A stretch of 64,000 bases of DNA from Actinokineospora inagensis DSM 44258 (GTDB lineage Bacteria > Actinomycetota > Actinomycetes > Mycobacteriales > Pseudonocardiaceae). The translations under genes and the position numbers were made by a program. Of the stretch, positions 4,758-38,538 are shown piece after piece. The stretch spans positions 34,576 through 98,575 of the forward strand of contig NZ_AXWW01000031.1 in the NCBI RefSeq assembly GCF_000482865.1. Reading direction: 5' to 3'. Every line of letters begins with the position of its first letter. Within the stretch, counting starts at the first letter, position 1. The notes beneath the pieces are model-generated. The model was given only the letters and a program-made list of their open reading frames with translations. It was not told the DNA's origin and did no database searches.

Positions 4758-4905
4758 GCCCGTTGTGGTGAAGTTGTTTTGTTTGGGGCCCCTAGCGGTA
4801 GCCTGGGTAAGGCTAAAAGGCGGGGCCACTGGAAAGCGTGGCCTTACCCGCCTGCCGGCTTAGGCCACCGCTCCCCCCAAACAAAACAACTTCACCACAA
4901 CGGGC
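4758..4905 (+). repeat. 148-bp palindromic element, copy 1 (C block)
   Basis: The outer arms are perfect 31-bp inverted repeats (4758-4788 and 4875-4905), beginning GCCCGTTGTGGTGAAGTTG and ending in TTTGGGG. The interior is a nested imperfect palindrome: AGCGGTAGCC pairs with GGCTTAGGCCACCGCT, and GGGTAAGGC pairs with GTGGCCTTACCC. The apex, near GGGGCCACTGGAAAG, breaks strand symmetry and gives orientation. Three other copies are exactly the same length. No flanking target-site duplication or open reading frame is evident. It lies between the convergent ankyrin and SipW/LamG genes, so it could form a very long stem in RNA or cruciform DNA. Confidence 0.85.
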
Positions 4906-5080
4906 GGTTGGGATCGGCGGGTTTCGAGGCGCGCGGTGCGAGTGTGGGGCTTCGTCGATGGGGGGGTGGGTTGGCGGCTTTCGTCGATTTGGGGTGGTTT
5001 TTTGAGGCGCGCGATGCGGGGGTGGTGCTTTGTTGATGAGGGGTGGGGTTGTTATGAGGCGCGTGGGGTTGGTGTGTTGT
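4906..5080 (+). repeat. D block: degenerate tandem units with TTCGTCGAT (copy 1)
   Basis: Three to four decaying units follow the palindrome. Each has a TTTCGAGGCGCGCGG-like stretch, then GTGTGG, then GCTTCGTCGAT and a run of G. The last recognisable CTTTGTTGATGAGGGG is at about 5030-5045. Homologous arrays lie at 33060-33313, 37850-37974 and 38539-38665, always against the same arm of the palindrome. The rest of the gap to the LamG gene (to 5163) is G/T-rich with nothing recognisable. Confidence 0.6.
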
Positions 5081-5163
5081 GGCGCTTCTTCGCCTGGTTG
5101 GTGTTGGTGGGTTGTTGTTGGCGTTTTTGGGTTCTGCTGAATTGCCACCTTGGGTCTCTGGTG

Positions 5164-8100
5164 TTAGTGGTTGGCGTGGTAGTGGCGGCGGATTTGGGCG
5201 TCGGTGAGTTGGGTGGGGTAGACGGCTAGTTCGTCCAGGGTGCCGACTAGGTAGTCGCTGGAGGGGCGGTTGGGGTAGTTGACCAGGGTGCCGCCGCCCC
5301 AGCGCCAGTAGCCGGTGAAGTTTTGGGCGGTGGTGGTTGTCGCGTCTTGGGCGATGAGGTTGCCGTCGACGTAGAGTTTCATGCCTGCGGTGCCCAGGCT
5401 GGCGGCGACGTGGTGCCAGGTGGCGTCGGTGTAGGAGGCGGTGGAGGTGATCGACTTCACCGTGGCGGGTTTGACGGCGAAGACGAGTTTGCCGGTGTTG
5501 TCGATGTAGAGGAGGCGGTCGCGGTTGGTGCTTGACGAGCTTGTCGTGTCGTAGAAGCCGGTGATGAGGCCGCCCCAGGGGCTGCCGGTGCGGAACCACG
5601 TTTCGATCGTGAACGACGTGGGGTTCGCGAAGCTGGTGAGGTTGGCGGCGTTGCCCGCGCCGTTGAAAGCCACCGCGGTGCTGGATGACTGGCCCTGTTG
5701 GGCGCCCTGGAGTGCGCCGGGGGCACCGGCGGTCATGGGGGATAGGGCGCCTGCGACGGGGAGCGGGTCCGGCGGTGGGGACTGCTCGTTGTAGAGGTCC
5801 TGCACCTGCGAAGCCGACAGCGCGGCCTGGATGGTGCGGATTTTGTCCAGGTACCCATAAAAATAGTCCATTTGGGACCCGCTGCGCAGCGCGCGTCCGG
5901 TTTGGACGGTGCCGGTCGCGTTCCACTTGGTACCGCCGCGGGTGGTGGAGTCCTGCAACACCCCGTTGACGTAGAGCTTCAGCGTTTCCGCGCCTGCCTG
6001 GTAGACGCCGACGATGTGGTACCAGCCGTTTTGTTGGGCGATGGCCTGGCTGTAGACCGCGTCGTACGTCGGGGAACTGGTGTCGGTGCGGGGAATGCGG
6101 AAACACCACCGCGTCGAGCTGATGTCCGCGCCCAGCAGGTAGCCGCTGCCGACGGTGCCCTGTTGCGCGATGATGCTGCGGTCGCCGTTCGGTGTGGTCA
6201 GGTACGCCCACCCCGAGACCGTGAAGCTCTCGTCGGTGCGCAGCGACGCGGCCTGGCTGACGGTCCAACTGCTGGAGCCGTCGAAGTAGCCGGAGGTGCC
6301 CGCGACCGCGGTGTCCGACCACTGGACGTTGTTCATCGCGCCGCTGTTGCCGTTGCCGGAGGAGTCCGAGACGGTGACGGCCAGGTTGTCGTCGTACTGC
6401 CAGTCCAGACTGGGCCGGGTGTAGATGTCGTCGATCTCGGCGGCGGTGACGGCGCGGTTGTAGAACTGGACCTCGTCGACCTTGCCCGGCCAGTACTGCG
6501 CCCCACCGCCGTTGTAGCCGCGGCCGATGGAGATCTGCCCGGTCGCGTTCCACCCGCCGCCGCGGCTGGTCGTGCCCTCCAGCGCGCCGTTGAGGTAGAT
6601 CTTCATCTGCCCGTTGATCGAGTCCCACACACCGACCACGTACGTCCACGCGTTGGCGAGGGCACTGGTGCTGCTCGACACCCGCACGGTCGACGCGCCG
6701 GCCGAGTCGGACGCGGGCATGGTGAAGGCGTACTTGCCGGTCGAGGTGATGTAGGACAGCGCGAACGAGTTGACGTTGGTCCCGTCCTTGGCCAGGAATG
6801 TCCGGTCCGCGCCGCCCGCGCTGCTGATGTACACCCAGGCCGCGGCGGTGAAGCTGGTGTCGGTGCGCATGACGAAGGTCGACGCGCTGACGTAGTCGTC
6901 GACGCCGTCGAGGGACAACGCGCGCCCGGTGCGGCCCGACGTGCTCCAAGTCGCGCCGTTCTGCAGGGTGCCCGTGTAGCCGAACGGCCCGCTGTCGGTC
7001 GCGGTCGTGCCGGTCTGCTCCATGTTGTACTGGGCGTTGGGCGCGGTGGCGGCGCCGTAGATCCCGGACACCTCGCTCGCGCCGACCACGCGCGCGTAGA
7101 TCCGGCCCTCGTCGAGGGCGCCCGCCCACGGGAACAGCCAGCTACCGCCCCGGTAGATGGACCCGGCGACGAGCCACCCGGTGGCCTTCCACTCGTAGGC
7201 GTCCGCCCGCGCGGTCGAGGCTTCCAGGGACCCGTTGACGTAGAGCTTGATGACGTTGTTCGGGTCGTCGTACACGCCGACCAGGTGCACCCAGGTGTTG
7301 GCGACGACCGAGGTGGTCGACTGGGCGTAGTCCTCGGTGCCGCTGGACGCGTCGCTGCGGGGCAGGCCGAACCGCCACTTGCCGCCCTGCTGGTACAGGT
7401 ACCAGGCCCCGACGTTGCTGCCCTGCTGGGTGAACGCCACCGCCGTGGCGCTCGCCGAGGTCGTCTTGACCCACATGGACACGGAGAAGCTTGTGTCGGT
7501 CGCGACCGGTGACGGGTTCACGCTGGCCACCCGGTCGTTGACGCCGTCGAAGTTCACCGCGCCGCCCGCGATGCCGGTTGTCCAAGTAGGACCGTTGGTC
7601 AGCACGCCGGTGTTGACCCCGCCCGAGGAGTCGCCCGCGTTGGTCCCGGTTCCCTCGTCGAACCGCCAGTGCGTGGACGGCCCGTTGGTGGTGTTGTTGT
7701 ACTGGCCCGGCCTGCTGTTGCCGGACGAGTCGGCCGCCGTGCTGGTCGACGAGGAAGACTGGCTCTCCTCCTGGCGGTGGTAGAACAGCGGGCTGTCGCC
7801 GGTCACCGAGGCCGAATACGTGGGGAACGTGGTCGCCGCCCCCAGGCCGTTGCCCGTGTTGCCGCCGGTACCGGTGAACGCCGCGAAGCCCCCGCTGACG
7901 GAGGCGACCAGTAAGACGACCGTTGCGACCGCGCCCGCGGTCAGCCATTCGACGTTCCGCACGCCCGCGATCGGGCCCGGTGCGTGACCGCCGATGCCGA
8001 TCAGCGGTCGCGGCGGGGGAGCGGGCACCGGTCGGCCCCCGAACGTCCAGGCCAGCGCGGTCAGCCCCACCAGCGCGACGAGTGCGATGGTGAGGCTCAG

Positions 8101-8595
8101 CCAGTCGCCGGAGTGCACCCAGTACGAGGGCAGCCCGACCCACGGGACCCGCAGCCTGCCCTGCCCGTGGACGGCGTCCTCGGTGATCGGGGTGCTGTCG
8201 GCCTCGGCGTTCGCGTCGCCCTTGGTGATCAGTCCCGCGTCCGGGTCGACCCGGACCAGCCGGTGCAGCAGCGTGCGGTCGGCGTGGGTGGGGTCGTCGA
8301 ACGCCAGCACCGCGCCGGGGGCCGGGTGGTCGGTCAACAGCCCGCCGACCACCACCACGTCACCCGGTCGGATGGCGGGGCTCATCGACCCCGACAGCAC
8401 GACGTGCGACTGCCAGCCCACCAGGAACGGCGCCACGCTCCAGAACACCAGCCACACCAACACCGACAGCGTCGCCCCCGCGACGAACGCCACCAACTCA
8501 CACGCGTACGCACGCGTCCGGGACCCACCGGTGACGGTGGGTCCGAGCTGGGTGAATCGGGGGCGGCGCACGGTCACGCACCCCGGGCTTCCCAC
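5164..8595 (-). CDS. SipW-type signal peptidase I fused to a secreted four-LamG protein
   Basis: The 1143-residue protein has four parts. First, a membrane helix (about 31-57) precedes a signal peptidase domain. LSGSMSP carries catalytic Ser70, and TLLHRLVRV carries His111 where bacterial Lep enzymes have Lys. TKGDAN contains Asp127, so the domain is of the SipW/ER Ser-His type. Second, a helix lies at about 165-183. Third, residues 214-255 form a third helix running into VSGGFAAFTGTGGNTGNG, which resembles the signal region of SipW-dependent substrates such as TasA. Fourth, four LamG (jelly-roll) domains lie at about 305-515, 522-726, 729-937 and 945-1143. Peptidase and apparent substrate are thus on one chain, and cleavage near 236-240 would release the LamG part. 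The GTG start is uncertain; other GTGs follow within six codons. Confidence 0.85.
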   Translation of the reverse strand: MGSPGCVTVRRPRFTQLGPTVTGGSRTRAYACELVAFVAGATLSVLVWLVFWSVAPFLVGWQSHVVLSGSMSPAIRPGDVVVVGGLLTDHPAPGAVLAFDDPTHADRTLLHRLVRVDPDAGLITKGDANAEADSTPITEDAVHGQGRLRVPWVGLPSYWVHSGDWLSLTIALVALVGLTALAWTFGGRPVPAPPPRPLIGIGGHAPGPIAGVRNVEWLTAGAVATVVLLVASVSGGFAAFTGTGGNTGNGLGAATTFPTYSASVTGDSPLFYHRQEESQSSSSTSTAADSSGNSRPGQYNNTTNGPSTHWRFDEGTGTNAGDSSGGVNTGVLTNGPTWTTGIAGGAVNFDGVNDRVASVNPSPVATDTSFSVSMWVKTTSASATAVAFTQQGSNVGAWYLYQQGGKWRFGLPRSDASSGTEDYAQSTTSVVANTWVHLVGVYDDPNNVIKLYVNGSLEASTARADAYEWKATGWLVAGSIYRGGSWLFPWAGALDEGRIYARVVGASEVSGIYGAATAPNAQYNMEQTGTTATDSGPFGYTGTLQNGATWSTSGRTGRALSLDGVDDYVSASTFVMRTDTSFTAAAWVYISSAGGADRTFLAKDGTNVNSFALSYITSTGKYAFTMPASDSAGASTVRVSSSTSALANAWTYVVGVWDSINGQMKIYLNGALEGTTSRGGGWNATGQISIGRGYNGGGAQYWPGKVDEVQFYNRAVTAAEIDDIYTRPSLDWQYDDNLAVTVSDSSGNGNSGAMNNVQWSDTAVAGTSGYFDGSSSWTVSQAASLRTDESFTVSGWAYLTTPNGDRSIIAQQGTVGSGYLLGADISSTRWCFRIPRTDTSSPTYDAVYSQAIAQQNGWYHIVGVYQAGAETLKLYVNGVLQDSTTRGGTKWNATGTVQTGRALRSGSQMDYFYGYLDKIRTIQAALSASQVQDLYNEQSPPPDPLPVAGALSPMTAGAPGALQGAQQGQSSSTAVAFNGAGNAANLTSFANPTSFTIETWFRTGSPWGGLITGFYDTTSSSSTNRDRLLYIDNTGKLVFAVKPATVKSITSTASYTDATWHHVAASLGTAGMKLYVDGNLIAQDATTTTAQNFTGYWRWGGGTLVNYPNRPSSDYLVGTLDELAVYPTQLTDAQIRRHYHANH
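7831..7956 (-). other. Internal SipW-substrate-like signal segment of the LamG protein
   Basis: Residues 214-255 read as a hydrophobic helix ending in SVSGGFAAF followed by TGTGGNTGNG. TasA/CalY-type substrates show a similar Gly-Gly, aromatic/Ala-Ala-Phe, then Thr/Asn-rich order around the SipW cut. A cut after an Ala in GGFAAF is the likely position. This is inferred from resemblance. Confidence 0.55.
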
Positions 8596-8818
8596 AGGGA
8601 CATGACGGCGCGCGGGAGCAGCGTGCTCCCGGTGCCTACGCGCAGTCCCATGGTCGGTACCCGTCTCGTGATCGTTGTGCGGATTGGTTCACCGAGGGAT
8701 TCGGCGCAGGCGCTGTCCATCGGGGTGCCACACGGTTGCGAACCGGTTGCGCGGGGCCCGAACGCGAATTACCTGACGGTAACCGGGGATCGCGTTCGCA
8801 CAGCACACCGACTACGGC

Positions 8819-9331
8819 TCAGGTGTGCCGCTCGGTGTGGTCCCACGGTGGTCTGCCGGAACGGTGGTCCCGGAGCGGCCTGCCCGCGGCGCCGGGGCCG
8901 GGCAACATGTCGATGTCGTTGGCGTGCATGGGTTCGCCGCAGTGCGGGCAGCGCAGGTCGACGGCCGCGATCTCGCCGCAGGCGCGGTGGCGGTAGAGCA
9001 CCGGCGGACCCGCCTCGCCCGCGAGCCACCTGTCACCCCAGCCCGCCATGACCATGAGCAGGTCGACCAGCTCGGTGCCCTTCTCGGTCAGCACGTACTC
9101 GTGCCGGGGCCGCTGGTCGTACGGGCGGCGCTCCAGCACGCCCTGGTCGACCAGGTGGTTGAGCCGCTCGGTCAGGACCTTGCGGGAGATCCCCAGGTCA
9201 GCCTGGAGTTGGTCGAACCGGGTGAACCCCACCCACACGTCCCGCAGGATCAGCGGTGACCAGGGCTCCCCGATGACGTCCCAAGTCCGCGCGATCGAGC
9301 AGGTCATCTTGCCGAAGTCCGTGCGCTGCAT
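8819..9331 (-). CDS. HxlR-family transcriptional regulator
   Basis: The protein has 170 residues. It carries the HxlR winged helix at about 8-100, with CSIARTWDVIGEPWSPLILR, then FDQLQADLGISRKVLTERLN and a wing RRPYDQRPRHEYVLTEKG. C-terminal extension residues CGEIAAVDLRCPHCGEPM hold three cysteines (CG and CPHC) and could bind a metal. The gene is divergent from the F420-type oxidoreductase gene, and the 92-bp gap holds an inverted repeat. This fits the common arrangement in which an HxlR protein controls a divergent redox gene. No clear Shine-Dalgarno precedes the ATG. Confidence 0.9.
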   Translation of the reverse strand: MQRTDFGKMTCSIARTWDVIGEPWSPLILRDVWVGFTRFDQLQADLGISRKVLTERLNHLVDQGVLERRPYDQRPRHEYVLTEKGTELVDLLMVMAGWGDRWLAGEAGPPVLYRHRACGEIAAVDLRCPHCGEPMHANDIDMLPGPGAAGRPLRDHRSGRPPWDHTERHT

Positions 9332-9352
9332 GAGCCGAGCCTAGCCGTTGGG

Positions 9353-9405
9353 GTTCCTTCAAGGAACTTTGACGTGCTACGGTCATCGGGTCTCCTGAAG
9401 GAACT
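9353..9405. promoter_or_regulatory. Candidate HxlR operator
   Basis: A perfect 15-bp inverted repeat GTTCCTTCAAGGAAC lies at 9353-9367, and AAGGAACT recurs at 9398-9405 as a second half-site preceded by CTCCTG. Both lie between the divergent HxlR gene and the oxidoreductase gene, where an autoregulatory site is expected. Confidence 0.6.
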
Positions 9406-9423
9406 CAAGTGGGGGTTGTCCCG

Positions 9424-9855
9424 ATGAGCAAGGTCCACCAGTCGAACAACGTCGTCGCGTCGCCCGAGACGGCCAAGGCGCTGAACCCCGACATTCGTGC
9501 CGTGCTCGATGGCACCCCGCTCGCCCACGTCGCCACCGTCCTTCCCGATGGCGCGCCGCACTCCGTTCCGGTGTGGATCGGCACGCACGGCGACCACGTT
9601 GTGATCTTCTCTGGCCCTGGTAGCCGGAAAGCCCGCAACCTCCGTCGCGATCCCCGGGTGGCGATCTCGCTCACCCCGCCCGACCGGCCGTTCACGCCGG
9701 TGCTGATCCGCGGTCGAGTGGTCGACTGGCTGGACGGTGAGCGGGCCTGGGAGATCGTCGACCGGGTCGCCGCCAAGTACATCGGTGGTCCGTACAGCCG
9801 CGAGGACGCGCGGGTCGTCGCGATCATCGAGCCCGATTGGCAGAGCCACGGCTGA
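9424..9855 (+). CDS. PPOX-class F420-dependent oxidoreductase
   Basis: The 143-residue protein starts at the ATG at 9424, with GTGGGGG just upstream; an in-frame GTG five codons earlier is possible. It has the split-barrel flavin/F420 fold sequence: LDGTPLAHVATVLPDGAPHS, then VPVWIGTHGDHVVIFSG and SRKARNLRRDPRVAISL. That order is typical of PPOX-class F420-dependent enzymes in actinobacteria, which reduce or oxidise small substrates. A C-terminal ARVVAIIEPDWQSHG is also usual. It is probably repressed by the divergent HxlR protein. Confidence 0.85.
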   Translation: MSKVHQSNNVVASPETAKALNPDIRAVLDGTPLAHVATVLPDGAPHSVPVWIGTHGDHVVIFSGPGSRKARNLRRDPRVAISLTPPDRPFTPVLIRGRVVDWLDGERAWEIVDRVAAKYIGGPYSREDARVVAIIEPDWQSHG

Positions 9856-9861
9856 TGCGGT

Positions 9862-9923
9862 GCAACCGATGGTTGCGCATGGCGGTAACCCGCTCTACAG
9901 TGTTGAGCAACCGATGGTTGCGC
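9862..9923 (+). promoter_or_regulatory. Promoter between two identical operator palindromes (SRPBCC-ArsR operon)
   Basis: GCAACCGATGGTTGCGC occurs twice, at 9862-9878 and 9907-9923, and contains the dyad CAACC-GAT-GGTTG. Between them a -35-like TTGCGC (9873-9878, inside the first copy) and a -10-like TACAGT (9896-9901) are spaced 17 bp. A repressor on the two sites would cover the promoter. The ArsR-type protein encoded two genes downstream is the likely ligand. Confidence 0.65.
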
Positions 9924-9936
9924 GAGAGGGAACGCT

Positions 9937-11173: not shown

Positions 11174-11177
11174 AGTG

Positions 11178-29183: not shown

Positions 29184-30539
29184 TTACCGAGCACCGCCGT
29201 CCGGTTGTTTTGTGACCTGCGCCGGTGGTTGCCGTTGGTCGGGGAGGCGGGCCACGGCGGTCAGTCGCAACCGCAGGTCCTTCGGTCGCAGCGTGGCGGC
29301 GGGGACGGCGCGGACGGTGCCGGAACTCGTTGGCGTCACGTACCAGTGGCGCAGGATGGTGGTCAGTGCGATCGCGATCTCGGTCAGCGCGTACTGGGTG
29401 CCGACGCACTTGCGGGCGCCGCTGCTGAACGGGATGTACGCCGTGCGCGGTGGTTGCCGGTCGATCCAACGGTCCGGGTCGAACTCGTCGCCGCGCGGGT
29501 AGACGTCGTCGCGGAGGTGCAGCAGGTACGGGCTGACGACCACGGCGGTGCCCGCCGGAATCCGGTGTCCGGCCAGTTCGGTGTCCGCGCTGGTGGTGCG
29601 GGTGAACATCCACACCGGCGGCCACCGGCGCAGCGATTCGGTGATCACCCGGCCGGTGAGCGTCTCGTGACCGGGCGCGGTCCCGGCGGCGAGCACCTGG
29701 TCGGCCTCGGCGCGCACCCGCTCTTGCAGGTCCGGCCGGGTGGCGAGCAGGTGCAGTGTCCACGTCAGACAGCTCGCGGCCGTCTCGGTGCCCGCGATGA
29801 AGAAGGTGACGAGCTCGTCGGTCAGGCCGTCGTCCAGGTCTGAAGCCAGCAGCGCGGAGAGCAGGTCGCCGCGGTCCTTGTTGGGGTTCGCACGGCGATT
29901 GGCCACGACGTTGTCGAGCACGCCGCGCAGCCGGTCGGTCGCCTGGTGGTAGCCGCGGTTGCCCGGTGTGGGCAGGTTGTTCACCGCGGCGGGCCGCATC
30001 ATCCGGTGGTACAGGCCGGTCATCAACGTGGACACGTCGGCCAGCGCCTGCTTGAGTTCGGACGTGGTCAGGGCGTCGGAGAACATGGTGACGGCGACCG
30101 TGCGCGAGGTGATGTCCATCATCCCGTCGAGCACGTCGAGCGGTGCGCCGTTGGTCCAGGTCTCGGCCACGGCGCCTGCCTCGCGGGCCATCACCTCGGC
30201 GTACCCGGGCAGCCGGTCGGCGTGGAAGGCGGGCTGGACGAGCCGCCGTTGCCGCCGGTGCAGGGCGTGCGGGCAGGAGGACAGGCCGTTGCCCGCGAAC
30301 TCCCGGACCCGGTCCCAGAACGGGCCGCCCTTGTCGAAGACGTGGTCGTCGCGCAGCACCTGGTCGGCCAGGTCCGCCCCGCACACCACCACGGCGCGCA
30401 CCGGCCCCAGCCGCACCGCGACCAGGTCGCCGTGGCGGGGCAGGGATTCCAGCAGCCCCAAGGGATCGCGCATCAGCGACAGGGCGTGCCCCAGCAGGGG
30501 CAGCGCTCCGGGTGCGACGGGGATGTCAGTGGTCGTCAT
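29184..30539 (-). CDS. Cytochrome P450
   Basis: The 451-residue enzyme starts at ATG 30539 (MTTTDIPVAPG). It has the I-helix oxygen-binding motif FFIAGTETAAS, the K-helix ESLRRWPP, and the haem loop FSSGARKCVGTQYALTE with the cysteine ligand. The N-terminal VAPGALPLLGHALSLMRDPL resembles the PtlI-type group that oxidises terpenes or fatty-acid-like substrates. No terpene cyclase, ferredoxin or reductase gene is adjacent, so the partner and substrate are unknown. It is a single gene. Confidence 0.93.
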   Translation of the reverse strand: MTTTDIPVAPGALPLLGHALSLMRDPLGLLESLPRHGDLVAVRLGPVRAVVVCGADLADQVLRDDHVFDKGGPFWDRVREFAGNGLSSCPHALHRRQRRLVQPAFHADRLPGYAEVMAREAGAVAETWTNGAPLDVLDGMMDITSRTVAVTMFSDALTTSELKQALADVSTLMTGLYHRMMRPAAVNNLPTPGNRGYHQATDRLRGVLDNVVANRRANPNKDRGDLLSALLASDLDDGLTDELVTFFIAGTETAASCLTWTLHLLATRPDLQERVRAEADQVLAAGTAPGHETLTGRVITESLRRWPPVWMFTRTTSADTELAGHRIPAGTAVVVSPYLLHLRDDVYPRGDEFDPDRWIDRQPPRTAYIPFSSGARKCVGTQYALTEIAIALTTILRHWYVTPTSSGTVRAVPAATLRPKDLRLRLTAVARLPDQRQPPAQVTKQPDGGAR

Positions 30540-30929: not shown

Positions 30930-32603
30930 GTGGACGTCTGGTCATGGGCACGCGGCAGTCGGTTCGTCATGGGAATAGTCGCCGTGGGGCTGGTGGGGTC
31001 GGGCCTGGCGGTCGGCGCGACGACCGCGGCCGCCGAGCCCGTTGCGCCGCGACCGCCGGTGGTGGTGTTCGCGGAGAACTTCGAGAATGGTCAAGGTTCC
31101 GCCATCACCTGGGTGAACCGCTACGTCGGCGCGGCGCCGCTGGGGCAGACGTACACCGCGGACCCGGTGTGGTTGGCCTCGTGCAACGGGATCATCGCGT
31201 CCGAGCTCAACCAGGCGACCGATCCGCCCGGCGCGGGCTGCGGCGGCTGGTGGCCACGGGTCAAGGACCTGGCGGGCGTGCTCGGTGACTGGGCGGACGG
31301 CAGCGGCGCGACCAACCACGCGGTCACCGCGTACACGCACACCGACCCGGGCGCGGGCCGGACCCAACTGCAGAGCACCGCCCCGATCCCGATCTCGGCG
31401 CCGAACCGGTTCATCGCGTTCTCGGTCGACGTCGCCGAGCAGAACTGCTACGGCCAGCACACGAAGTACGCGTTCTACCTGCTCGACGGCGCCACCGCCA
31501 TCCCCGCGTCCACCCGCCCGATCGCGCCCTGCGAGGACGCGACCACGGTGATCAACGGGACCGCGGTCGGCACGTTCCACAGCGACGCGCCGGTGCTGTT
31601 CGCCGGGACCTCGCTCGGCCTGCGCCTGGTGAACCAGCAGCCCAGCGGCAACGGCAACGACAGCGCCTTCGACAACGTGCGGGTCCTCGACGTGACACCA
31701 CAGGTGGGGATCGCGTTCGACCCGAACCCGGTGGAGGTCGGCAAGACCTCGAACCTGACGCTGACGGTCACCAACACCACCGAGTTGAGCGCCAAGGCAG
31801 GCTGGTCCTTCACCCTCGCGCTCCCCCCTGGCCTCACCCAGGCACCCACGGTCGCAACGACCTGCGCAGGCACCACGTTCACCCCAGTGGCAGGTGCGTT
31901 CAGCGCCACCGGAACCCTCCCCGCAGGCGCCGAGTCGTGCACCATCACGCTCCCGGTGCGCGCCGCCCGGACCGGGACCTACACAAGCTGCGGCGGTGAC
32001 TTCGCGCCACTCGTCGGCCTGAACCCGCCCGGTTGCGCCACCCTCAAGGTCGTCGGCCCCACCCTCGCCTACGCCGCCCACGCCCACGGTGTCCGAGTGT
32101 CCACACTGCTCGGTCCGCTCCCCCCGCTGGCACCCGCCGACCTCACCTGCACCACCACCCCCACCACCGACTCGGCCACCCTCGCGACCGCTTCCGTGCT
32201 GGGCTCCACCAGCGCCCTCGTCGACACCGCCACCGGCACCACAGACCCCGACGGCCTGCGCACCGCCCACGCGACCTCCCACACCGCCGTGGTCAACCTC
32301 CTCGCGGGCCTCATCACCGCCGACGAACTCCACTCCGAGGCGATCGCCGCCACCACACCAACCGGCGCCATCACCGTGTCCGGCTCCAGCGGCCTGACCA
32401 ACCTGCGCGTCGCGGGCGTGCCGGTGATCCCGAAGGTCAACCTCAACCTGACCATCCCCCTCGTCGGCTCAATCACCACCGACGAACAGATCCCCGGACC
32501 CAACGGCATCACCGTCAACGCCCTGCACGTCAGACTGCTCGCGGGCACCGATCTGGTGGTCGGCCAGACCACCGCCTCCCTCGGCACCCCCTGCCTGGGC
32601 TGA
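30930..32603 (+). CDS. Secreted protein with DUF11-like and choice-of-anchor P-like domains
   Basis: The 557-residue product starts at GTG, six bases after GGAGG. The signal peptide includes FVMGIVAVGLVGSGLAVG with a probable cut after AAA-EP. Residues of about 45-255 form a beta-rich carbohydrate-binding-like domain starting VVVFAENFENGQGSAITW and ending NDSAFDNVRVLDVTP. A DUF11-like domain (NPVEVGKTSNLTLTVTNTTE) follows to about 375. The C-terminal third (HSEAIAATTPTG, GLTNLRVAGVPV, LHVRLLAGTDLVVG) fits the choice-of-anchor P family. It is probably surface or extracellular. No LPXTG motif is visible. Confidence 0.75.
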   Translation: MDVWSWARGSRFVMGIVAVGLVGSGLAVGATTAAAEPVAPRPPVVVFAENFENGQGSAITWVNRYVGAAPLGQTYTADPVWLASCNGIIASELNQATDPPGAGCGGWWPRVKDLAGVLGDWADGSGATNHAVTAYTHTDPGAGRTQLQSTAPIPISAPNRFIAFSVDVAEQNCYGQHTKYAFYLLDGATAIPASTRPIAPCEDATTVINGTAVGTFHSDAPVLFAGTSLGLRLVNQQPSGNGNDSAFDNVRVLDVTPQVGIAFDPNPVEVGKTSNLTLTVTNTTELSAKAGWSFTLALPPGLTQAPTVATTCAGTTFTPVAGAFSATGTLPAGAESCTITLPVRAARTGTYTSCGGDFAPLVGLNPPGCATLKVVGPTLAYAAHAHGVRVSTLLGPLPPLAPADLTCTTTPTTDSATLATASVLGSTSALVDTATGTTDPDGLRTAHATSHTAVVNLLAGLITADELHSEAIAATTPTGAITVSGSSGLTNLRVAGVPVIPKVNLNLTIPLVGSITTDEQIPGPNGITVNALHVRLLAGTDLVVGQTTASLGTPCLG

Positions 32604-32650: not shown

Positions 32651-32654
32651 CCGG

Positions 32655-33008
32655 TCACCGCCGCGCCAGCCTGCGCTCCGGCCCGACCCCGTAGTCCAAG
32701 TGGTAGTGCGCGAACACCTTCGGCTCATCAACCGCAGGCAACTCCCCATCCACCGCGATCTGCGGCGCGTCACGCACAAGATCCTTCGAGTACCGCACCC
32801 GCACCGACTTCGGAGTCACGGTAACGTCGATGGCAGGCACGAACACCAGATGATGCTTGCCGATGAGCCCACCCACGTCGATCGTGAGAAAACTGGGCTC
32901 ATCACTGATCGTGTCGACGTAGACCGCCTCCAGGACGCCGATCTTCTTCGAATCCGGGTCCAGCACATCTATCCCAACCCAGTCGCGCAAATTTTCCACG
33001 GTGAACAT
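32655..33008 (-). CDS. PRC-barrel domain protein
   Basis: The 117-residue protein starts at the ATG giving MFTVENLRDWVGIDVL; longer in-frame starts lie in the repeat region. It reads as a PRC barrel: DWVGIDVLDPDSKKIGVLEA, then VYVDTISDEPSFLTIDVGGL, then HHLVFVPAIDVTVTPKSVRV and RYSKDLVRDAPQI. PRC barrels bind RNA or protein in ribosome maturation or photosynthetic reaction centres. Here the role is unknown. It is a single gene. Confidence 0.85.
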   Translation of the reverse strand: MFTVENLRDWVGIDVLDPDSKKIGVLEAVYVDTISDEPSFLTIDVGGLIGKHHLVFVPAIDVTVTPKSVRVRYSKDLVRDAPQIAVDGELPAVDEPKVFAHYHLDYGVGPERRLARR

Positions 33009-33059
33009 GCCCCAGGAGTACCCCGTTACCACCGCAGCACACCTCCACCCCCGAAGGAC

Positions 33060-33313
33060 CCCAACCGAGCTACCCCCCGCCTCGACCCCACCCCCACAGA
33101 GGGCTTCCGCCCCACATCGACGAAGCCCCCCGGCGCCGCGCGCCTCAAAAACCGCCCCCATATCGACAAAGCGCCACACCCGCACCGCACACCTCGAAAC
33201 CCCACCTCACATCGACGAAGGCCGCCAGCCCACCCCCCGCGCCTCGGGACCCGCCCCATATCAGCGAAGTCCCACACTGGCCCCACGCGCCTCGGGACCC
33301 GCCGATGCCAACT
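33060..33313 (-). repeat. D block of module copy 2 (reverse orientation)
   Basis: Five to six decaying units contain ATCGACGAAG (reverse of CTTCGTCGAT), CCCACAC-like spacers and GCGCCTCGGGACCCGCC. They abut the left arm of the palindrome at 33314. The gap 33009-33059 shows nothing else. Confidence 0.6.
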
Positions 33314-33461
33314 GCCCGTTGTGGTGGAGTTGTTTTGTTTGGGGGGAGCGGTGGCCTAAGCCGGCTGGCGGGTAAGGCCACGCTTTCCAGTGGCCCCGCC
33401 TTTTAGCCTTACCCAGGCTGCCGCTAGAGGCCCCAAACAAAACAACTTCACCACAACGGGC
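33314..33461 (-). repeat. 148-bp palindromic element, copy 2 (reverse orientation)
   Basis: The 31-bp arms (33314-33344 and 33431-33461) match copy 1 with one mismatch (GTGGTGGAG on the left arm). The interior is the reverse complement of copy 1: CCACGCTTTCCAGTGGCCCC. It lies downstream of the VOC gene stop and upstream of the PRC-barrel gene start. Confidence 0.85.
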
Positions 33462-33545
33462 ACCACCGCTTTCATCTGGCGCCCGAGGCCGGCGTCGCCG
33501 AAGGCGACCAGACCCAACCCCGAGCGCAGCGAGGTCCAGAGATCC
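33462..33545 (-). repeat. B block of module copy 2 (reverse orientation)
   Basis: It begins ACCACCGCTTTCATCTGGCG and contains GGCGTCGCCGAAGGCGACC, ending near the VOC stop. It matches copy 1's B block in reverse. Confidence 0.7.
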
Positions 33546-33974
33546 TCAACTCACACAAAACTCATTCCCCTGCGGATCCGCTAGAGTCACCCACCGAAAC
33601 GGCCCCTGATCCCCATCGTGAAGCTTGACCGCCCCCCGCGCGATCAACCCCTCCACCGCAGCAGCCACATTCTCCCTCCCCACCCACACATCCACATGTA
33701 CCCGGTTCTTCACCGTCTTCGCTTCAGGCACCCACTGAAACAACATCCGCCGCTTAACAGTCGGATGGTTGATCGCCGCCCCCGTCTTCCACACCAGCGC
33801 GCCATTGTGCGTTGTGGTGTCAGACTCACGAGCGTGACCTTCGGTCACCATTCTGCGGATGAACTCCTCGTCAGTGGGTTCCACCGCCCAGCCGAGGGTC
33901 TCGGCCCACCAGTCGGCGAGAGTGTGCGGGTCGCTGGAGTCGACCACGACCTGGAAGTCGTGCGGTGTGCTCAT
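33546..33974 (-). CDS. VOC-superfamily (glyoxalase/bleomycin-resistance-like) protein
   Basis: The 142-residue protein has the glyoxalase-fold layout: HDFQVVVDSSDPHTLADWWA, GWAVEPTDEEFIRRMV, LFQWVPEAKTVKNRVHVDVW and the closing WVTLADPQGNEFCVS, where D-P-x-G-N-E-F-C is typical of VOC proteins. Metal-ligand His and Glu positions are present in the first and last strands, but the substrate is unknown. Its stop lies at the edge of the repeat module. Confidence 0.85.
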   Translation of the reverse strand: MSTPHDFQVVVDSSDPHTLADWWAETLGWAVEPTDEEFIRRMVTEGHARESDTTTHNGALVWKTGAAINHPTVKRRMLFQWVPEAKTVKNRVHVDVWVGRENVAAAVEGLIARGAVKLHDGDQGPFRWVTLADPQGNEFCVS

Positions 33975-33983
33975 GCGGCCACC

Positions 33984-34478
33984 CTAGAGGCCATTCCGGA
34001 CGATTAGTGTCCGCTCACGGGCTCCCTGCGCGGTGAACCGGCACCGCACCGTGAACGCCCGCGGGCTCGGGCCGTTCGCCCGGAGGTAGGCCAACCGCGC
34101 CAACCCGTCGGCCGGGCTCGGGCGTTGGCCGACCCTGATCCACCACAGCGCCGTGGCCGGGAGCGGGACGCGCTCGAACCATTCCCTGCGGTGCCGGACG
34201 AATCGGCCGTGTTCGGCGCGGTAGGCGTAGTCGTGCAGCACCCGGTACGACTCCCACACCGAGATGTTCAGCGCCATCCGCTCGTCTCCGAGCAGGTCCG
34301 CGCCGTTGAGGCGGTCGCCCGGCGATGGCAGCCGCCACACGAATCCCGGCGCCGACTCGGCGAGCCGGTTGACCCGGCGCAGCACGCTGAGGAAGGTCGC
34401 CAGTCGTGGATCGTCCGGCGGTACCCGCAGTTTGGACACGTTGACCTGCGCGAGGTGGAACCGGCCCCCGATCAGCAT
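33984..34478 (-). CDS. DUF3291 domain protein
   Basis: The 164-residue protein starts at the ATG giving MLIGGRFHLAQVNVSKL, where the conserved part begins. It shows RLATFLSVLRRVNRLAESAP, GFVWRLPS, LNISVWESYRVLHDYAYRAE, HRREWFERV and ALWWIRVGQRPSPADGLARL. This order is that of DUF3291, a heme-degrading/ABM-like fold with no proven function. It is next to the VOC gene (9-bp gap) and probably co-transcribed with it. Confidence 0.85.
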   Translation of the reverse strand: MLIGGRFHLAQVNVSKLRVPPDDPRLATFLSVLRRVNRLAESAPGFVWRLPSPGDRLNGADLLGDERMALNISVWESYRVLHDYAYRAEHGRFVRHRREWFERVPLPATALWWIRVGQRPSPADGLARLAYLRANGPSPRAFTVRCRFTAQGARERTLIVRNGL

Positions 34479-34500
34479 GCGACCGAGGGTAACGGGGGTG

Positions 34501-35475
34501 TCACGAGTTGAGGGTGTGGCTCGGCAGCACACCGAACGCCGAGCGGTAGTAGCCGGTGAACCTACCGGCGTTGAAGAAACCCCACCGGGCGGCCACGGCC
34601 GTCACGGTGTCCGCCCCGGGCGAGGCGTTCACGAGTTCCCGGTGCGCGTGTTCGAGCCGGATCCGCCGCAGGTAGGCCAGGGGAGTGGTGTCGAGGTGGC
34701 GGCGGAACGCGAGCTGGACCGCCCGCACCGTCACCCTGGACGCGACGGCGACGTCGGCGAGTGAGATGTCGGTGCCCGCGTTCTCCTCGATGTAGGCGAT
34801 CGCGCGGCGCAGCGTCGGCGGGTACGCGTCGTGCCGGTCGGTTCCGGTTGGTTCGAGGACGGCGGTGCTCGGGAAGGTCGCCAGCGCGGTGGCGGCCAGC
34901 AACCGGGCCGCGTTCGCCAGCACCAGCGTCTCCGCGCCGGTGCCGAGCACGTCGTCGACCAGGAACTCCACCGTGCGCCGCCACCGCCGGGCGCCCACCT
35001 CGGTCAGCGGCCGGTACCCGGTGAACCGCGGCCGCCCGCTCGCCACCTCGCCCAGCAGCTCCGCCTCGAAGGTGACCGACCGCAGCTCGGCCAGCCAGGC
35101 CCGGGTCGCGAACCGCTCACCCGGCCGCGAGTGCACCAGTACGTCCCCGGGGGCGATCCGGTCGAACTCGGTGCCCAGGGTCCGCTCCGCGCGGCCGGCG
35201 TGCAGGTCGACGAACACCGGCCCGGTCGCCTCGGCGCTGTAGGCCAGGTCCAGTGGCAACCGCAGGTCGTCGATGGTGAACCGGCCGCCGCTGGCCCGCT
35301 GGTGGGCCAGCGTCCCGGCGCTGAGCCGGTCCACGGTCAGGTCGTGGTCGAGCGTCTCCACCAGGTACTGGTTCGCCCGGTCTGGGTCGTCGGTCTCGAA
35401 CCGGGTGATCCGGTCCGGCTGCCGCTCCTGCTCGGGAACGGCCGTTCGGGACATGGTCTCCATCGCCGTCTCCAT
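34501..35475 (-). CDS. AraC-family transcriptional regulator
   Basis: The 324-residue protein starts at ATG 35475; ATGs 4 and 7 codons later are alternatives. The N-terminal 200 residues form a sensing domain (FVDLHAGRAERTLGTEFDRI, GDVLVHSRPGERF). The C-terminal AraC DNA-binding domain is at about 220-320: LRRAIAYIEENAGTDISLAD, VAVASRVTVRAVQLAFRRH, PLAYLRRIRLEHAHRELV and the second motif VAARWGFFNAGRFTGYYRSA. It is divergent from the two-repeat protein gene at 35648 and may control that gene. Confidence 0.9.
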   Translation of the reverse strand: METAMETMSRTAVPEQERQPDRITRFETDDPDRANQYLVETLDHDLTVDRLSAGTLAHQRASGGRFTIDDLRLPLDLAYSAEATGPVFVDLHAGRAERTLGTEFDRIAPGDVLVHSRPGERFATRAWLAELRSVTFEAELLGEVASGRPRFTGYRPLTEVGARRWRRTVEFLVDDVLGTGAETLVLANAARLLAATALATFPSTAVLEPTGTDRHDAYPPTLRRAIAYIEENAGTDISLADVAVASRVTVRAVQLAFRRHLDTTPLAYLRRIRLEHAHRELVNASPGADTVTAVAARWGFFNAGRFTGYYRSAFGVLPSHTLNS

Positions 35476-35647
35476 CGCCCTGCCTTCCACCCTGGTTCCT
35501 TGCCGACTACCCCGTCCCGCCGCGCCCGAACCTGGCAACCGGCTGTGGAACCCATGAGTTGGCTGTGCGCGGCCGCCGTTCGCTCGGAAGGGCGAACCGG
35601 AGGCCGAACCCCCGGTGGCAAGCGAACCCCACCGCGAGGCAGGAAGC

Positions 35648-36418
35648 ATGACTGTGAGCACGATCTCGAGTGCGTCGAGCACCGCGCTGGCCCAACTCCA
35701 GCAGACCCAGCAGACCCAGGGCACCCACCGCCACGGCGAGATGCGCAAGGCGTTCGACGCCGCCGCCAAGACCCTCGGCATGTCGACCGACGACCTGCGC
35801 AGCGCGCTGCAGAGCGGTCAGAGCATGACCTCGCTGGCGCAGAGCAAGGGCATCAGCACCGACGCCCTCACCTCCGCCATCAGCGACGCGCTGACCAGCG
35901 CGGACTCCAGCCTGACCGCCGACAAGGCCAAGGAGATCGCCCAGCGCGTCGTCGCGGGCCCCGGCCAGGGCGGCCCGGGTGGTCCCGGCGGCGCGGGCGG
36001 GCCGGGTGGCCCGCCGCCCGGCGGCAAACCCGACTCGCGGATCGAGAGCGCCCTTTCGTCCGTCGCGGGCGCCCTCGGCATGTCCGACGACGACCTGAAG
36101 GACGCCCTCAGCTCCGGCCAGTCCCTCACCGACGTCGCCGCCGCCAACGGCATGGACGCCGACACCCTCAAGACCACCCTCACCACCGCCATCAGCAAGG
36201 CCGACTCGTCGCTGTCGTCGGACGCGGTCAGCGCGCTCGCCGACAAGATCATCCAGGGCCCGCCGAAGAAGGAGCAGGACAACCAGACCGACCGGCAGGG
36301 CTTCGACCTGTCCCAGCTCAGCAGCTCGCTGGACAGCTCGTCGATCAGCAAGCAACTGCTGAGCAGCGTGTACTCGCAGCAGTCGTCACAGTTGGCCGCC
36401 GCAGGCAGTTGGGCCTGA
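35648..36418 (+). CDS. Unrecognised protein with two 72-residue helical repeats and a Gly/Pro linker
   Basis: The 256-residue protein starts at ATG 35648. Repeat 1 (about 32-103) has LGMSTDDLRSALQSGQSM then SLAQSKGISTDALTSAI. Repeat 2 (about 132-203) has LGMSDDDLKDALSSGQSL then DVAAANGMDADTLKTTL. A Gly/Pro-rich linker (104-126) joins them. A Gln/Ser-rich tail follows. No signal peptide or membrane helix is visible. The LGMSxDDLxxAL-SGQSL-GxxxDxL pattern occurs in uncharacterised actinobacterial proteins. It is divergent from the AraC regulator. Confidence 0.75.
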   Translation: MTVSTISSASSTALAQLQQTQQTQGTHRHGEMRKAFDAAAKTLGMSTDDLRSALQSGQSMTSLAQSKGISTDALTSAISDALTSADSSLTADKAKEIAQRVVAGPGQGGPGGPGGAGGPGGPPPGGKPDSRIESALSSVAGALGMSDDDLKDALSSGQSLTDVAAANGMDADTLKTTLTTAISKADSSLSSDAVSALADKIIQGPPKKEQDNQTDRQGFDLSQLSSSLDSSSISKQLLSSVYSQQSSQLAAAGSWA

Positions 36419-36424
36419 CCCGCC

Positions 36425-36454
36425 CCGGCTCCCACCCGATCGGGTGGGAGCCGG
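36425..36454. terminator. Perfect 30-bp palindrome after the two-repeat protein gene
   Basis: CCGGCTCCCACCCGA (36425-36439) is directly followed by its reverse complement (to 36454) with no loop. It lies 6 bp after the stop and may act as a terminator, though a few central bases must unpair to form a hairpin. Confidence 0.65.
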
Positions 36455-36531
36455 TTAGGGTGTCCTCAGTCATGCCCCGCCGGTGCCCGCGCCACGCGTA
36501 GCATTCGGGGGACGTCGAGGGAGGACCACAA

Positions 36532-36864
36532 ATGGCGACATCACACGCCCGCGTCGCGACCGACCGCCCCGGCCGGTACGCCAAGCAGTTGGCGGCGCAC
36601 ATGGCCCGCAAGGTCGAGACCGAGTGGGACCCGGACACCGGCGTCGGTGAGCTCCGCTTCCCGTTTGGCACCTCGGCGCTGCGCGCCGAGCCCGACGCCC
36701 TGCTGCTCACCGTGGACGGCGCGCCCGAGGACCTGGAGCGCCTGGAGGCCGTGGTCGGCAAACACCTCGTCCGCTTCGGCGCCAAGGACGAGTTGGTGGT
36801 CGCCTGGACCCGCGACACGGGCACCCCCGGCACCGAGTGGCGCAACGACGAGGACCCCGCCTGA
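36532..36864 (+). CDS. DUF2218 domain protein
   Basis: The 110-residue protein starts at ATG after GGAGG. It has the DUF2218 pattern: HARVATDRPGRYAKQLAAHM, ARKVETEWDPDTGVGELRFP, FGTSALRAEPDALLLTVDG and LERLEAVVGKHLVRFGAKDE. Members often lie beside iron-siderophore genes, but none is visible here. The function is unknown. Confidence 0.88.
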   Translation: MATSHARVATDRPGRYAKQLAAHMARKVETEWDPDTGVGELRFPFGTSALRAEPDALLLTVDGAPEDLERLEAVVGKHLVRFGAKDELVVAWTRDTGTPGTEWRNDEDPA

Positions 36865-36928
36865 CCCCCGTCACCCACCCGGGTCGCCCCGCTCAAGCTC
36901 CGGTCACCCGACCGCCGATGACCCCCAC

Positions 36929-37801
36929 ATGGTCATCAAGCCGACCCTGGTCGCCCTCCTCCTGCTGCTCACCGCCTGCGCCCACCCGGTCCCCTTCGCG
37001 ACCGCGCCGCCACGCGCCCACGAGCCCGACCAAATCGGCTGCCTCACCACCCCCGTGACGTCGTCGCCGACCACGTCCACCACCGCCGCAGCCCCGTTGT
37101 CCCTGCGCACCGCCCCCACTTTGGGCGTGTCGCTCCAGGGCAGCCCCGCCGTCTGGACCGAGATCCAACGGGAACTCGCGACGTACGAGAAGTCGGACTA
37201 CCAGCACGTCACCACGGTCAACCGCTCCACAGGCACCTACATCGTCGACTGCTCAGGCTGGGGCAACGTCCTGCTCCGCACCGCCTCCTGCGCCGCCTAC
37301 GCCGACCTCGTCGCCTCGGCCAACAACACCCGAGGCACCACCTTCACCGCGTCCTGCGACCTCGGCGCAGGCCAAATAGAACACGGCCCCTACGCGGTGG
37401 ACTGGGCCCACATGCTCTCGTCAATCCCCCCGGGCACCCCCAACGCCCACTGGTCCCGCCTGACCTCCGTCGCCACCCTCACCCCCGGCGACGTCATCAC
37501 CTACGCCCTCGGCCCCAACGCCACCGACACCGGCCACGTAATGTTCTGCGCAGGCCACCCCACCCAAACCTCCCCCACCGAATGGACCGTCCCCATCGCC
37601 GACTCAACAGCCAGCGAACACGGCCCAACCGACACCCGCCACAACAACCCGAAAAACATCAACGGCACAGGAATCGGCACCTCGTCACTGACCCTCATCA
37701 CCGATACCAACGGCACCCCAACCCCCCAATTCCGCTGGTACCCGACTGACCCAAACATTGATACCGTTCCAGCCCCCGTTCTCCTGGGTCACCTGAACTA
37801 A
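36929..37801 (+). CDS. Lipoprotein with a possible NlpC/P60- or CHAP-like cysteine-peptidase domain
   Basis: The 290-residue protein starts MVIKPTLVALLLLLTAC, a lipoprotein signal with the lipobox Cys at 17. A Thr/Ser/Pro linker follows. The C-terminal domain (about 80-290) begins QHVTTVNRSTGTYIVDCSGW and later GDVITYALGPNATDTGHVMF. The DCSGW/GHVM pair with G-D-V is the Cys and His pattern of papain-like NlpC/P60 and CHAP domains, so a peptidoglycan-type amidase role is possible. The third catalytic residue is not clear. No strong Shine-Dalgarno is visible. The 3' part has many A- and C-ending codons. Confidence 0.65.
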   Translation: MVIKPTLVALLLLLTACAHPVPFATAPPRAHEPDQIGCLTTPVTSSPTTSTTAAAPLSLRTAPTLGVSLQGSPAVWTEIQRELATYEKSDYQHVTTVNRSTGTYIVDCSGWGNVLLRTASCAAYADLVASANNTRGTTFTASCDLGAGQIEHGPYAVDWAHMLSSIPPGTPNAHWSRLTSVATLTPGDVITYALGPNATDTGHVMFCAGHPTQTSPTEWTVPIADSTASEHGPTDTRHNNPKNINGTGIGTSSLTLITDTNGTPTPQFRWYPTDPNIDTVPAPVLLGHLN

Positions 37802-37849
37802 CCCTCTCGCACCCGCCCACCCACCCACCGGAAATCGCCATCGAGACTA

Positions 37850-37974
37850 CGCCGCGAAACCCACACCTCATCGACGAAGTGCCACACCCACACCCCCCTC
37901 CCAAAAAAACCCACGCCCTATCGACGAAGGCCGCCAGCCTGCGCCGCGCGCCTCGGGACCCGCCGACACCAACT
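37850..37974 (-). repeat. D block of module copy 3 (reverse orientation)
   Basis: Decaying units with ATCGACGAAG at about 37870 and 37920 are separated by CCACACCCACACCCCCCTCC and A-rich runs. They end GCGCCTCGGGACCCGCC just before the palindrome. Confidence 0.6.
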
Positions 37975-38122
37975 GCCCGTTGTGGTGGAGTTGTTTTGTT
38001 TGGGGGGGGCGGTGGCCTAAGCCGGCGGGCGGGTAAGGCCACGCTTTCCAGTGGCCCCGCCTTTTTGCCTTACCCAGGCCACCGCTAGGGGCCCCAAACA
38101 AAACAACTTCACCACAACGGGC
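37975..38122 (-). repeat. 148-bp palindromic element, copy 3 (reverse orientation)
   Basis: The same length and arms as the other copies. Left arm 37975-38005, right arm 38092-38122, one mismatch (GTGGTGGAG). The apex reads CCACGCTTTCCAGTGGCCCC, so it points opposite to copy 4, 269 bp away. Confidence 0.85.
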
Positions 38123-38207
38123 ACCACCGCTTTTATCTGGCGCCCGGGGCCGGCGTCGCCGCCAGGCGACAAGGCCGAATCTCGAGGCGCAGCCGAGGCC
38201 TGGAGTC
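38123..38207 (-). repeat. B block of module copy 3 (reverse orientation)
   Basis: Begins ACCACCGCTTTTATCTGGCG and contains GCGTCGCCGCCAGGCGAC. It mirrors the B block at 38304-38390. Confidence 0.7.
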
Positions 38208-38249
38208 CCTGTGTGGGCTCGTCGGGCCAGGACTGTCGGTGGGCTCGTC

Positions 38250-38290
38250 TAGGCTGTGTATTCAGGGGCTCAAGTCTAGGTTGATCATGG
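38250..38290 (+). repeat. 41-nt A box, copy 4
   Basis: TAGGCTGTGTATTCAGGGGC then GTTGATCATGG, at the centre between the two head-to-head modules. Same strand as the copies at 4.5 kb. The stretch 38208-38249 holds GTCGG-rich spacer sequence. Confidence 0.7.
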
Positions 38291-38303
38291 TTCGAGTGCT
38301 CAC

Positions 38304-38390
38304 AGAGGGCACTGAGCCTCGCTTCGCTCGGGTTTCGGCCTTGTCGCCTGGCGGCGACGCCGGCCCCGGGCGCCAGATTAAAACGGTAGT
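38304..38390 (+). repeat. B block of module copy 4
   Basis: Begins GAGGGCACTGAGCCTCGC and contains GTCGCCTGGCGGCGACGCC, the same order as copy 1. Confidence 0.7.
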
Positions 38391-38538
38391 GCCCGTTGTG
38401 GTGAAGTTGTTTTGTTTGGGGCCCCTAGCGGTAGCCTGGGTAAGGCTAAAAGGCGGGGCCACTGGAAAGCGTGGCCTTACCCGCCAGCCGGCTTAGGCCA
38501 CCGCTCCCCCCAAACAAAACAACTCCACCACAACGGGC
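38391..38538 (+). repeat. 148-bp palindromic element, copy 4
   Basis: The arms are 38391-38421 and 38508-38538. The right arm has one mismatch (CTCCACC). It is nearly identical to copy 1 through the interior and apex (GGGGCCACTGGAAAGC) and lies in the same orientation. Confidence 0.85.

Follow-up and report, generated by a model that had tools for sequence, protein, structure and literature searches.

The window analyzed here, a 64,000-nucleotide stretch of the Actinokineospora inagensis DSM 44258 genome (contig NZ_AXWW01000031.1, positions 34,576 to 98,575), contains four copies of a 148-bp palindromic element that very probably belong to a new, structure-conserved family of dispersed repeats. 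The host genome carries about 135 copies, and related genomes harbor versions whose arms have been rewritten with compensatory changes. Within the genus one strand is favored, and on this strand promoter-like hexamers and a T-run occupy characteristic places; the elements are rare between divergent genes, and their occupancy of orthologous gaps differs between genomes. Our interpretation of this repeat of about 115 to 150 bp as a likely non-autonomous mobile element with a predicted single-stranded-DNA promoter, in the manner of Frpo and ssoA, is tentative, and we hold it with somewhat more doubt than confidence. One strand would fold into a long hairpin with the -35 hexamer in the stem and the -10 hexamer beside a bulge (in most subfamilies examined), the folded single strand would recruit housekeeping RNA polymerase, the polymerase would make a short (primer) RNA, and the repeat would spread as a non-autonomous mobile element. 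We infer the self-movement, the folding of DNA rather than RNA, the binding of RNA polymerase and the role of its product. No published description of the palindrome family was found in the open-licence literature.

A dispersed palindrome with conserved pairing

The four copies lie at window positions 4758 to 4905 (favored strand minus), 33314 to 33461 (plus), 37975 to 38122 (plus) and 38391 to 38538 (minus), where the favored strand is the one preferred by covariance models R2 and R3; it starts at the 5' end with GCCCGTTGTGGTG(G/A)AG and carries TAGGGGCCCC on its 3' side. Direct inspection of the sequence bore out what a sequence-only reading had described, namely four 148-bp copies, two per orientation, with 31-bp outer arms, a nested dyad and an asymmetric apex. 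The arms of copy 1 (4758 to 4788 and 4875 to 4905) pair at 31 of 31 positions, and those of copies 2 (33314 to 33344 and 33431 to 33461), 3 (37975 to 38005 and 38092 to 38122) and 4 (38391 to 38421 and 38508 to 38538) have a single mismatch each at arm position 14, which in copy 2 is a G·T on the plus strand. On one side only, the apex reads GGGGCCCCTA or differs from it by a single letter. After orienting, the copies agree pairwise at 142 to 146 of 148 positions, and R3 gives all four 110 to 114 bits on the favored strand compared to 56 to 62 bits on the other (113.7 and 61.8 for copy 1, 109.8 and 57 for copy 2, 112.8 and 56.4 for copy 3, 113.9 and 57 for copy 4). Folded with DNA parameters, their eight strands reach z scores of -8.8 to -11.4, a level that 0 of 200 shuffles attained and that chance would hardly give. 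Copies 3 and 4 sit in opposite arms of a 250-nt inverted repeat that is 96% complementary. Beyond these four, no copy in the window was found with confidence by the models; one R1 match (E 0.0008) and one R2 match (0.13) look like chance.

Across the host genome (7.28 Mb in 97 contigs), the arm matches 136 times forward and 134 times in reverse at up to 3 mismatches, which corresponds to about 135 copies, and a control arm read backward gives 0 matches compared to these 270. Most of the 54 non-redundant host copies, a set made up of those in the loci sampled rather than all of the roughly 135, are exactly 148 bp long (45 copies; five have 149 bp, one 147 bp and one 151 bp, and two are interrupted). 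The two interrupted palindromes, L032 and L034, lie at 16.4 and 19.5 kb of host contig C1 and have 361 and 351 bp between their outer arms, including unresolved bases; the insert of L032 resembles an insertion sequence by appearance, with no search made. The genome also holds copies of another arm type (L243 and L265, found with R2 and R3). At least eight host contigs (C1, C2, C7, C26, C52, C60, C70 and C81) have a copy or an arm less than about 300 bp from an end, so the repeat breaks the assembly, and about 135 copies may be an underestimate. Arrays of clustered regularly interspaced short palindromic repeats (CRISPR) were rejected because the copies listed occur singly or in pairs, scattered over many contigs; the sequence-only reading had likewise seen no CRISPR-like spacer.

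All 80 named loci among the matches listed (at least 116 stretches) belong to Actinokineospora, a genus of the Pseudonocardiaceae. R1 matches occur in 15 of 16 genomes of the genus, nine of which have at least 87; since a single palindrome can be matched on both of its strands (the four window copies gave eight matches, plus one that looks like chance), covariance-model matches are not copy counts, and the copies of these genomes may number about half of their R1 matches. Within the family, R3 matches occur in 63 of 390 genomes, which represent 12 of 46 genera; across the class they occur in two of 394 genomes, both of them Actinokineospora. Scans of more than 40 genomes, such as these, scored 8 or 16 candidates per genome under strict filters and may miss weak matches outside the family. 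Only one of the 16 genus genomes, G006, has neither an R1 nor an R3 match, and it thereby offers itself as an outgroup in the search for a partner gene. The named relatives are A. diospyrosa (G005), A. globicatena (G008), A. terrae (G014), A. auranticolor (G002) and Actinokineospora sp. NBRC 105648 (G011), and the copies taken from G003, G005, G008 and G014 are mostly the best-scoring ones. Elements read from other genera (n = 17) measure 116 to 146 bp, and most keep GGGG/CCCC, AGGGG and the motif at the -10 place, with exceptions.

The arms of these elements change in sequence and stay paired. In alignment A3, which comprises 28 sequences drawn from 15 genomes, pairing is kept in 99.4% of 784 cells compared to 77.1% in shuffles, and 21 of 28 arm pairs show double-sided change compared to 14.6 in shuffles, with 0 of 500 shuffles as high. 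Alignment A4, to which other genera were added (36 sequences), gives 96.4% compared to 70.3% and double-sided change at 20 of 22 pairs. This shuffle test is inflated by relatedness, yet a slide control of A3 that retains relatedness is far lower at 32% to 50% paired. The outermost A3 pair is G-C in 28 of 28 sequences. Arm pairing is maintained through compensatory change that amounts to very strong covariation, with the arm sequence rewritten between species. The sequence-only reading had suggested selection for pairing or recent mobility, and had considered that copies limited to the window, without compensatory changes or empty sites, would speak against it; copies beyond the window, compensatory changes and empty sites were all found. 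Both halves of the suggestion gained support, pairing from the 21 of 28 double-sided pairs across 15 genomes, and mobility from the roughly 135 copies, the species-specific subfamilies and the differing occupancy of orthologous gaps described below.

Strand preference and promoter-like signals

In a set of 146 copies (at most nine entered twice; at least two copies without the anchor motif excluded), the arms form 4231 Watson-Crick pairs, 196 G·T and 12 A·C pairs as read on the favored strand, and 20 others. If a palindrome acted as a duplex alone, G·T and A·C should be equally frequent, so this excess is strand-specific, and we conclude that strand specificity exists within the genus. The G·T sites recur at arm position 14 and at positions 25 to 27.

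The favored strand also carries a promoter-like layout, which, like the strand specificity, was beyond the reach of the sequence-only reading. The pattern TT[GC]NNN-N15-19-TANNNT is present on this strand in 122 of 180 distinct elements and on the other strand in 9 of 180. A set of 49 elements had it in 38 cases compared to one on the other strand, and in A4 it is found in 27 of 36 sequences (one of which, L243, has it outside the usual place) compared to one of 36 on the other strand and to a mean of 2.4 and a maximum of 8 of 36 in 200 rounds of letter shuffling. The hexamers found include TTGTGT, TTGCGT, TTGACT and TTGATT for the -35 and TAGCGT, TAAGCT, TAGCCT, TAAACT and TACCCT for the -10. 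The former lies within the paired arm, the latter past the second stem, next to the 5' bulge. When a random 90 of the 180 elements were folded as DNA, the 62 with the pattern had a mean unpaired probability of 0.02 at the -35, 0.48 at the -10 and 0.37 in the interior. A TTTT run is present in the interior of the favored strand in 151 of 180 elements compared to one of 180 on the other strand, and in some subfamilies lies in the loop instead of after the inner stem.

In window copy 2, the -35-like hexamer TTGTTT occupies 33335 to 33340 (plus strand; element positions 22 to 27, in the paired 5' arm), where most family sequences have TT[GC]; by sequence reading, its equivalents are 37996 to 38001 (plus), 4879 to 4884 (minus) and 38512 to 38517 (minus). 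The -10 place holds TAAGCC at 33357 to 33362 (plus; element positions 44 to 49), with equivalents at 38018 to 38023 (plus), 4857 to 4862 (minus) and 38490 to 38495 (minus); most other subfamilies read have TANNNT there. An inner stem-loop GGCCAC..GTGGCC followed by CCGCC and TTTT, terminator-like in its makeup, spans 33376 to 33404 (plus) in copy 2 and 38037 to 38065 (plus) in copy 3. The motif TAGGGG in the 3' bulge, adjoining CCCC of the arm, shows the strongest primary-sequence conservation of any motif in the genus (alignments A3 and A4) and lies at 38086 to 38091 (plus), 4789 to 4794 (minus) and 38422 to 38427 (minus), with the variant TAGAGG at 33425 to 33430 (plus) in copy 2.

Turnover, gene context and flanking repeats

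Differences between orthologous gaps point to gain, loss and replacement of elements and thereby to mobility. With flanks matched on both sides, A. globicatena has 664 bp with an element (locus L209, 2675 to 3339) where A. diospyrosa has an empty gap of 38 bp (L199, 5087 to 5125), and the difference is a block of about 660 bp that comprises the palindrome plus flanking repeats. The window itself is empty at 47145 to 47808 where G003 has an element, host locus L095 has two elements where G003 has one full element, and G003 locus L174 has two where G008 locus L205 has one, again with matched flanks. With a match on one flank only, one A. diospyrosa element adjoins the gene at window position 29184, a place that is empty in the window itself, and another adjoins the gene at 30984 to 32603 in the orientation opposite to copy 33314. 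In A. terrae, a copy at L220 stands right behind a gene and has no flanking repeats. Spread of the family as a non-autonomous mobile element is therefore likely.

The sequence-only reading had seen neither a target duplication nor a transposase. Over 130 sites compared to shuffled pairing, there is a small excess of matches at 3 bp (7 and 2.2), and the other lengths give 11 and 7.8 at 2 bp, 1 and 0.34 at 4 bp, 0 at 5 to 7 and 9 bp, and 1 and 0.02 at 8 bp, so the former remark stands in the sense that no general duplication exists. The latter holds for Y1 transposases (PF01797), which are found neither in the host genome nor in 13 of 15 other genus genomes; the search was limited to this transposase family. 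G001 (C1:3353181) and G012 (C1:4831705), where a Y1 transposase is present, have just 14 and 23 R1 matches.

Among 112 copies placed in five genomes, 60 lie in convergent gaps, 50 in tandem gaps (27 and 23 by orientation) and 2 in divergent gaps, as judged with a simple, crude gene caller that left 12 of 124 copies without a call and with pairs in one gap counted twice. Four settings gave 60 to 63 convergent, 49 to 50 tandem and 2 to 5 divergent placements. The caller was wrong for one of the four window copies, since it missed a PRC-barrel gene (32655 to 33185, minus) and took the gap of copy 33314 for a convergent one; this copy is flanked by a PRC-barrel and a glyoxalase gene, both on the minus strand. 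The copies at 4758, 37975 and 38391 lie between convergent genes (Pfam-supported or called open reading frames). A role as 3'-end element of one neighboring gene was hinted at by the host genome (25 of 29) and rejected, as the larger set did not keep this trend. Near copy 1, the minus strand of 5164 to 8592 encodes a large protein with four Laminin_G_3 stretches (Pfam).

In the host genome, conservation extends past the 148 bp, with GC-rich hairpins on one side and irregular tandem repeats of about 50 bp on the other. For copy 1, the small GC-rich hairpins (GCCTCGCTGCGCTCGGGG.., GTCGCCTTCGGCGAC, GGGCGCCAGAT), common to the aligned host copies, span 4668 to 4757 (plus), and the opposite flank at 4906 to 5000 (plus) reads GGTTGG..TCGGCGGGT..CGAGGCGCG and then enters the irregular tandem repeats. 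Three further units with TAGG(C/G)TGTGTATT, 67 and 78 bp apart, lie beside copy 1 at 4482 to 4647 (plus). They belong to a second repeat with TAGGCTGTGTATTYRGGGGCT whose units are about 67 to 79 bp apart, which in the window is found at 4482 to 4647 and 38250 to 38270 and often adjoins the palindrome; its motif occurs at 89 places in the host genome at up to one mismatch. Similar units (TAGGCTGTGTATT.., with TTGTCCACA upstream) are seen in A. diospyrosa and A. globicatena loci. A flanking promoter TAGGCTGTGTATT as driver of the element was rejected because it points along the less favored strand and is itself a tandem repeat, and a DnaA box in the flank was rejected because TTGTCCACA has 0 matches in the window, though it is present in the flanks of relatives. 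At A. terrae locus L133, a long poly-C run directly follows the palindrome from about position 1647.

Competing explanations and known systems

The idea of a single-stranded promoter explains the pairing, the strand bias and the hexamers together, and several observations weigh against it. It accounts poorly for the T-run, since a run placed after the inner stem would be expected of transcribed duplex DNA rather than of a folded single strand. The G·T excess derives from Actinokineospora; in a 20-sequence set (17 from other genera), the ratio across the outer 20 pairs is 12 to 8. The promoter pattern was recognized after looking at the sequences; the 21 of 180 elements from loci taken after it was fixed, some from genomes already used, have it 13 times on the favored strand and 0 times on the other. 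Just 41 of 62 folded elements have a -10 that is more open than their interior, and in 69 of 90 the favored strand folds more stably as DNA than the other. Of 40 host copies, 36 have TAAGCC at the -10 place, which explains why the pattern is scarce on the favored strand there (2 of 40, compared to 8 of 40 on the other strand), and a standard sigma-70 scan of 37800 to 38750 found no promoter. TAAGCC argues against present activity of the window copies, which may be weak or dead as promoters. As to mobility, the block of about 660 bp in the A. globicatena gap does not establish that the 148-bp unit moves alone, and one gap with both flanks matched (G008 L213 and G013 L157) has an element in both genomes with a different arm type. 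Neither a transposase nor a relaxase or Rep of its own was identified for the element, PF01797 being the only family searched for. No plasmid or phage record matched in BLAST, so phage or plasmid cargo was rejected; the 72 copies of G003 among the matches listed all lie on one 7.68-Mb contig, and location on a conjugative or rolling-circle replicon thus found no support. A replication-strand bias was rejected as well, since these 72 places are even over the contig halves (18 plus and 15 minus compared to 19 plus and 20 minus, counted by hand and taking the contig start as near the origin).

A serious though doubtful alternative is an RNA repeat similar to ERIC and NEMIS, in which read-through transcripts would fold and end transcription or alter mRNA stability, with the hexamers being incidental. 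The context of 60 convergent, 50 tandem and 2 divergent placements among 112 copies would suit it, G·T wobble is what selection at the RNA level would leave, the inner stem with a T-run exists, and bacterial repeats of about 100 to 200 bp with long stem-loop transcripts are known (PMC2229807). However, the favored strand shows no clear preference as the transcribed strand of its neighbors (27 tandem copies in one orientation, 23 in the other), and the TT[GC]/TANNNT spacing kept on one strand would be left unexplained. Alternatively, the elements could be tiny duplex transcription units whose internal promoter and inner terminator yield a small hairpin RNA after about 40 nt, with the arms serving transposition only. 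The promoter-like signals and the inner stem with its T-run do share a strand, but such a unit gives no reason for pairing of the arms in a single strand or for the G·T bias, and the -10 is lost in the abundant host subfamily; we consider it improbable.

Template switching can perfect quasi-palindromes, and palindromy of functionless, neutral repeats might be kept by the replication machinery through template switching between arms and gene conversion among copies. The homogeneity of the host copies agrees with this, yet arm repair alone gives no strand bias of the remaining mismatches, G·T sites recur at arm positions 14 and 25 to 27, the unpaired TAGGGG is conserved and so are the hexamers in several genera, which makes a neutral origin decidedly improbable. 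Least credible to us, and with hardly any chance, is a decoy similar to 6S RNA, in which RNA of the favored strand would mimic an open promoter and titrate RNA polymerase. The long hairpin, asymmetric bulge and promoter-like layout resemble such a decoy, and the strand bias would be compatible with RNA, but there is no Rfam 6S match, DNA hexamers would be pointless in RNA, and 6S RNA is usually encoded by a single gene compared to about 135 repeat copies here. Known RNA families in general were rejected with 0 Rfam matches in the window; none reached the gathering score, and all five sub-threshold matches are to microRNA hairpin families.

A stronger form of the single-stranded-promoter reading would make the palindrome a new class of protein-less hairpin mobile elements of about 150 nt that travel as single-stranded DNA, with a promoter formed by their own fold priming conversion to duplex, in about 135 copies here and rewritten species by species in the Pseudonocardiaceae. 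We consider this unlikely, slightly more so because the filled and the empty gap differ by a larger block. If a single-stranded promoter is indeed formed, one chromosome can carry more than 100 of them outside plasmids, which would bear on the spread of protein-less repeats such as ERIC and Correia and on the role of their hairpins. The many species-specific subfamilies amount to a set of natural mutants in which recognition of promoters in folded DNA could be tested.

Among known systems, REP, BIME and REPIN sequences resemble the palindrome in being extragenic, palindromic, present in more than 100 copies and at times arranged as inverted pairs (PMC2817692). However, the Y1 transposase that accompanies REP/REPIN as RAYT is missing from the host and from 13 of 15 other genus genomes, and a REP/RAYT origin was rejected, as 14 of 16 genus genomes lack it (PF01797 in 2 of 16). 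ERIC and Correia (NEMIS) elements share the character of miniature inverted-repeat transposable elements, being below 200 bp, non-coding and dispersed, with terminal inverted repeats and a long stem-loop, and internal promoters have been proposed for Correia elements (PMC2229807). Compared to these, the palindrome family shows no general target duplication and lacks 5'-TA-3' ends, with its outermost A3 pair being G-C in 28 of 28, while its arms are rewritten between species with pairing kept, its promoter layout is strand-specific, and its matches among those listed are confined to one family in the strictly filtered scans.

The origin ssoA, which is about 160 nt long, folds when single-stranded and is primed by RNA polymerase (PMC5703833), is similar in size and in its strand-specific imperfect hairpin, and sso action is orientation-specific (PMC4595007). 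Polymerase priming is established for ssoA and only predicted for the palindrome, which differs further in its about 135 dispersed copies in one genome, without a plasmid match in BLAST and with Rep neither seen nor searched for. Frpo, a single-stranded-DNA promoter in the leading region of the F plasmid, unites -35 and -10 in a stem-loop of one strand (PMC9849209); the promoter of the palindrome would instead point into the loop, is not known from a conjugative plasmid and is predicted in its activity only. As to reconstitution of the two hexamers in the folded strand, the pattern is present in 122 of 180 elements, but 36 of 40 host copies have TAAGCC and openness of the -10 is only moderate. 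Within Actinokineospora, the palindrome shares with ssoA and Frpo a strand-specific stem-loop, and it may share with Frpo in particular the joining of -35 and -10 in such a structure on one strand.

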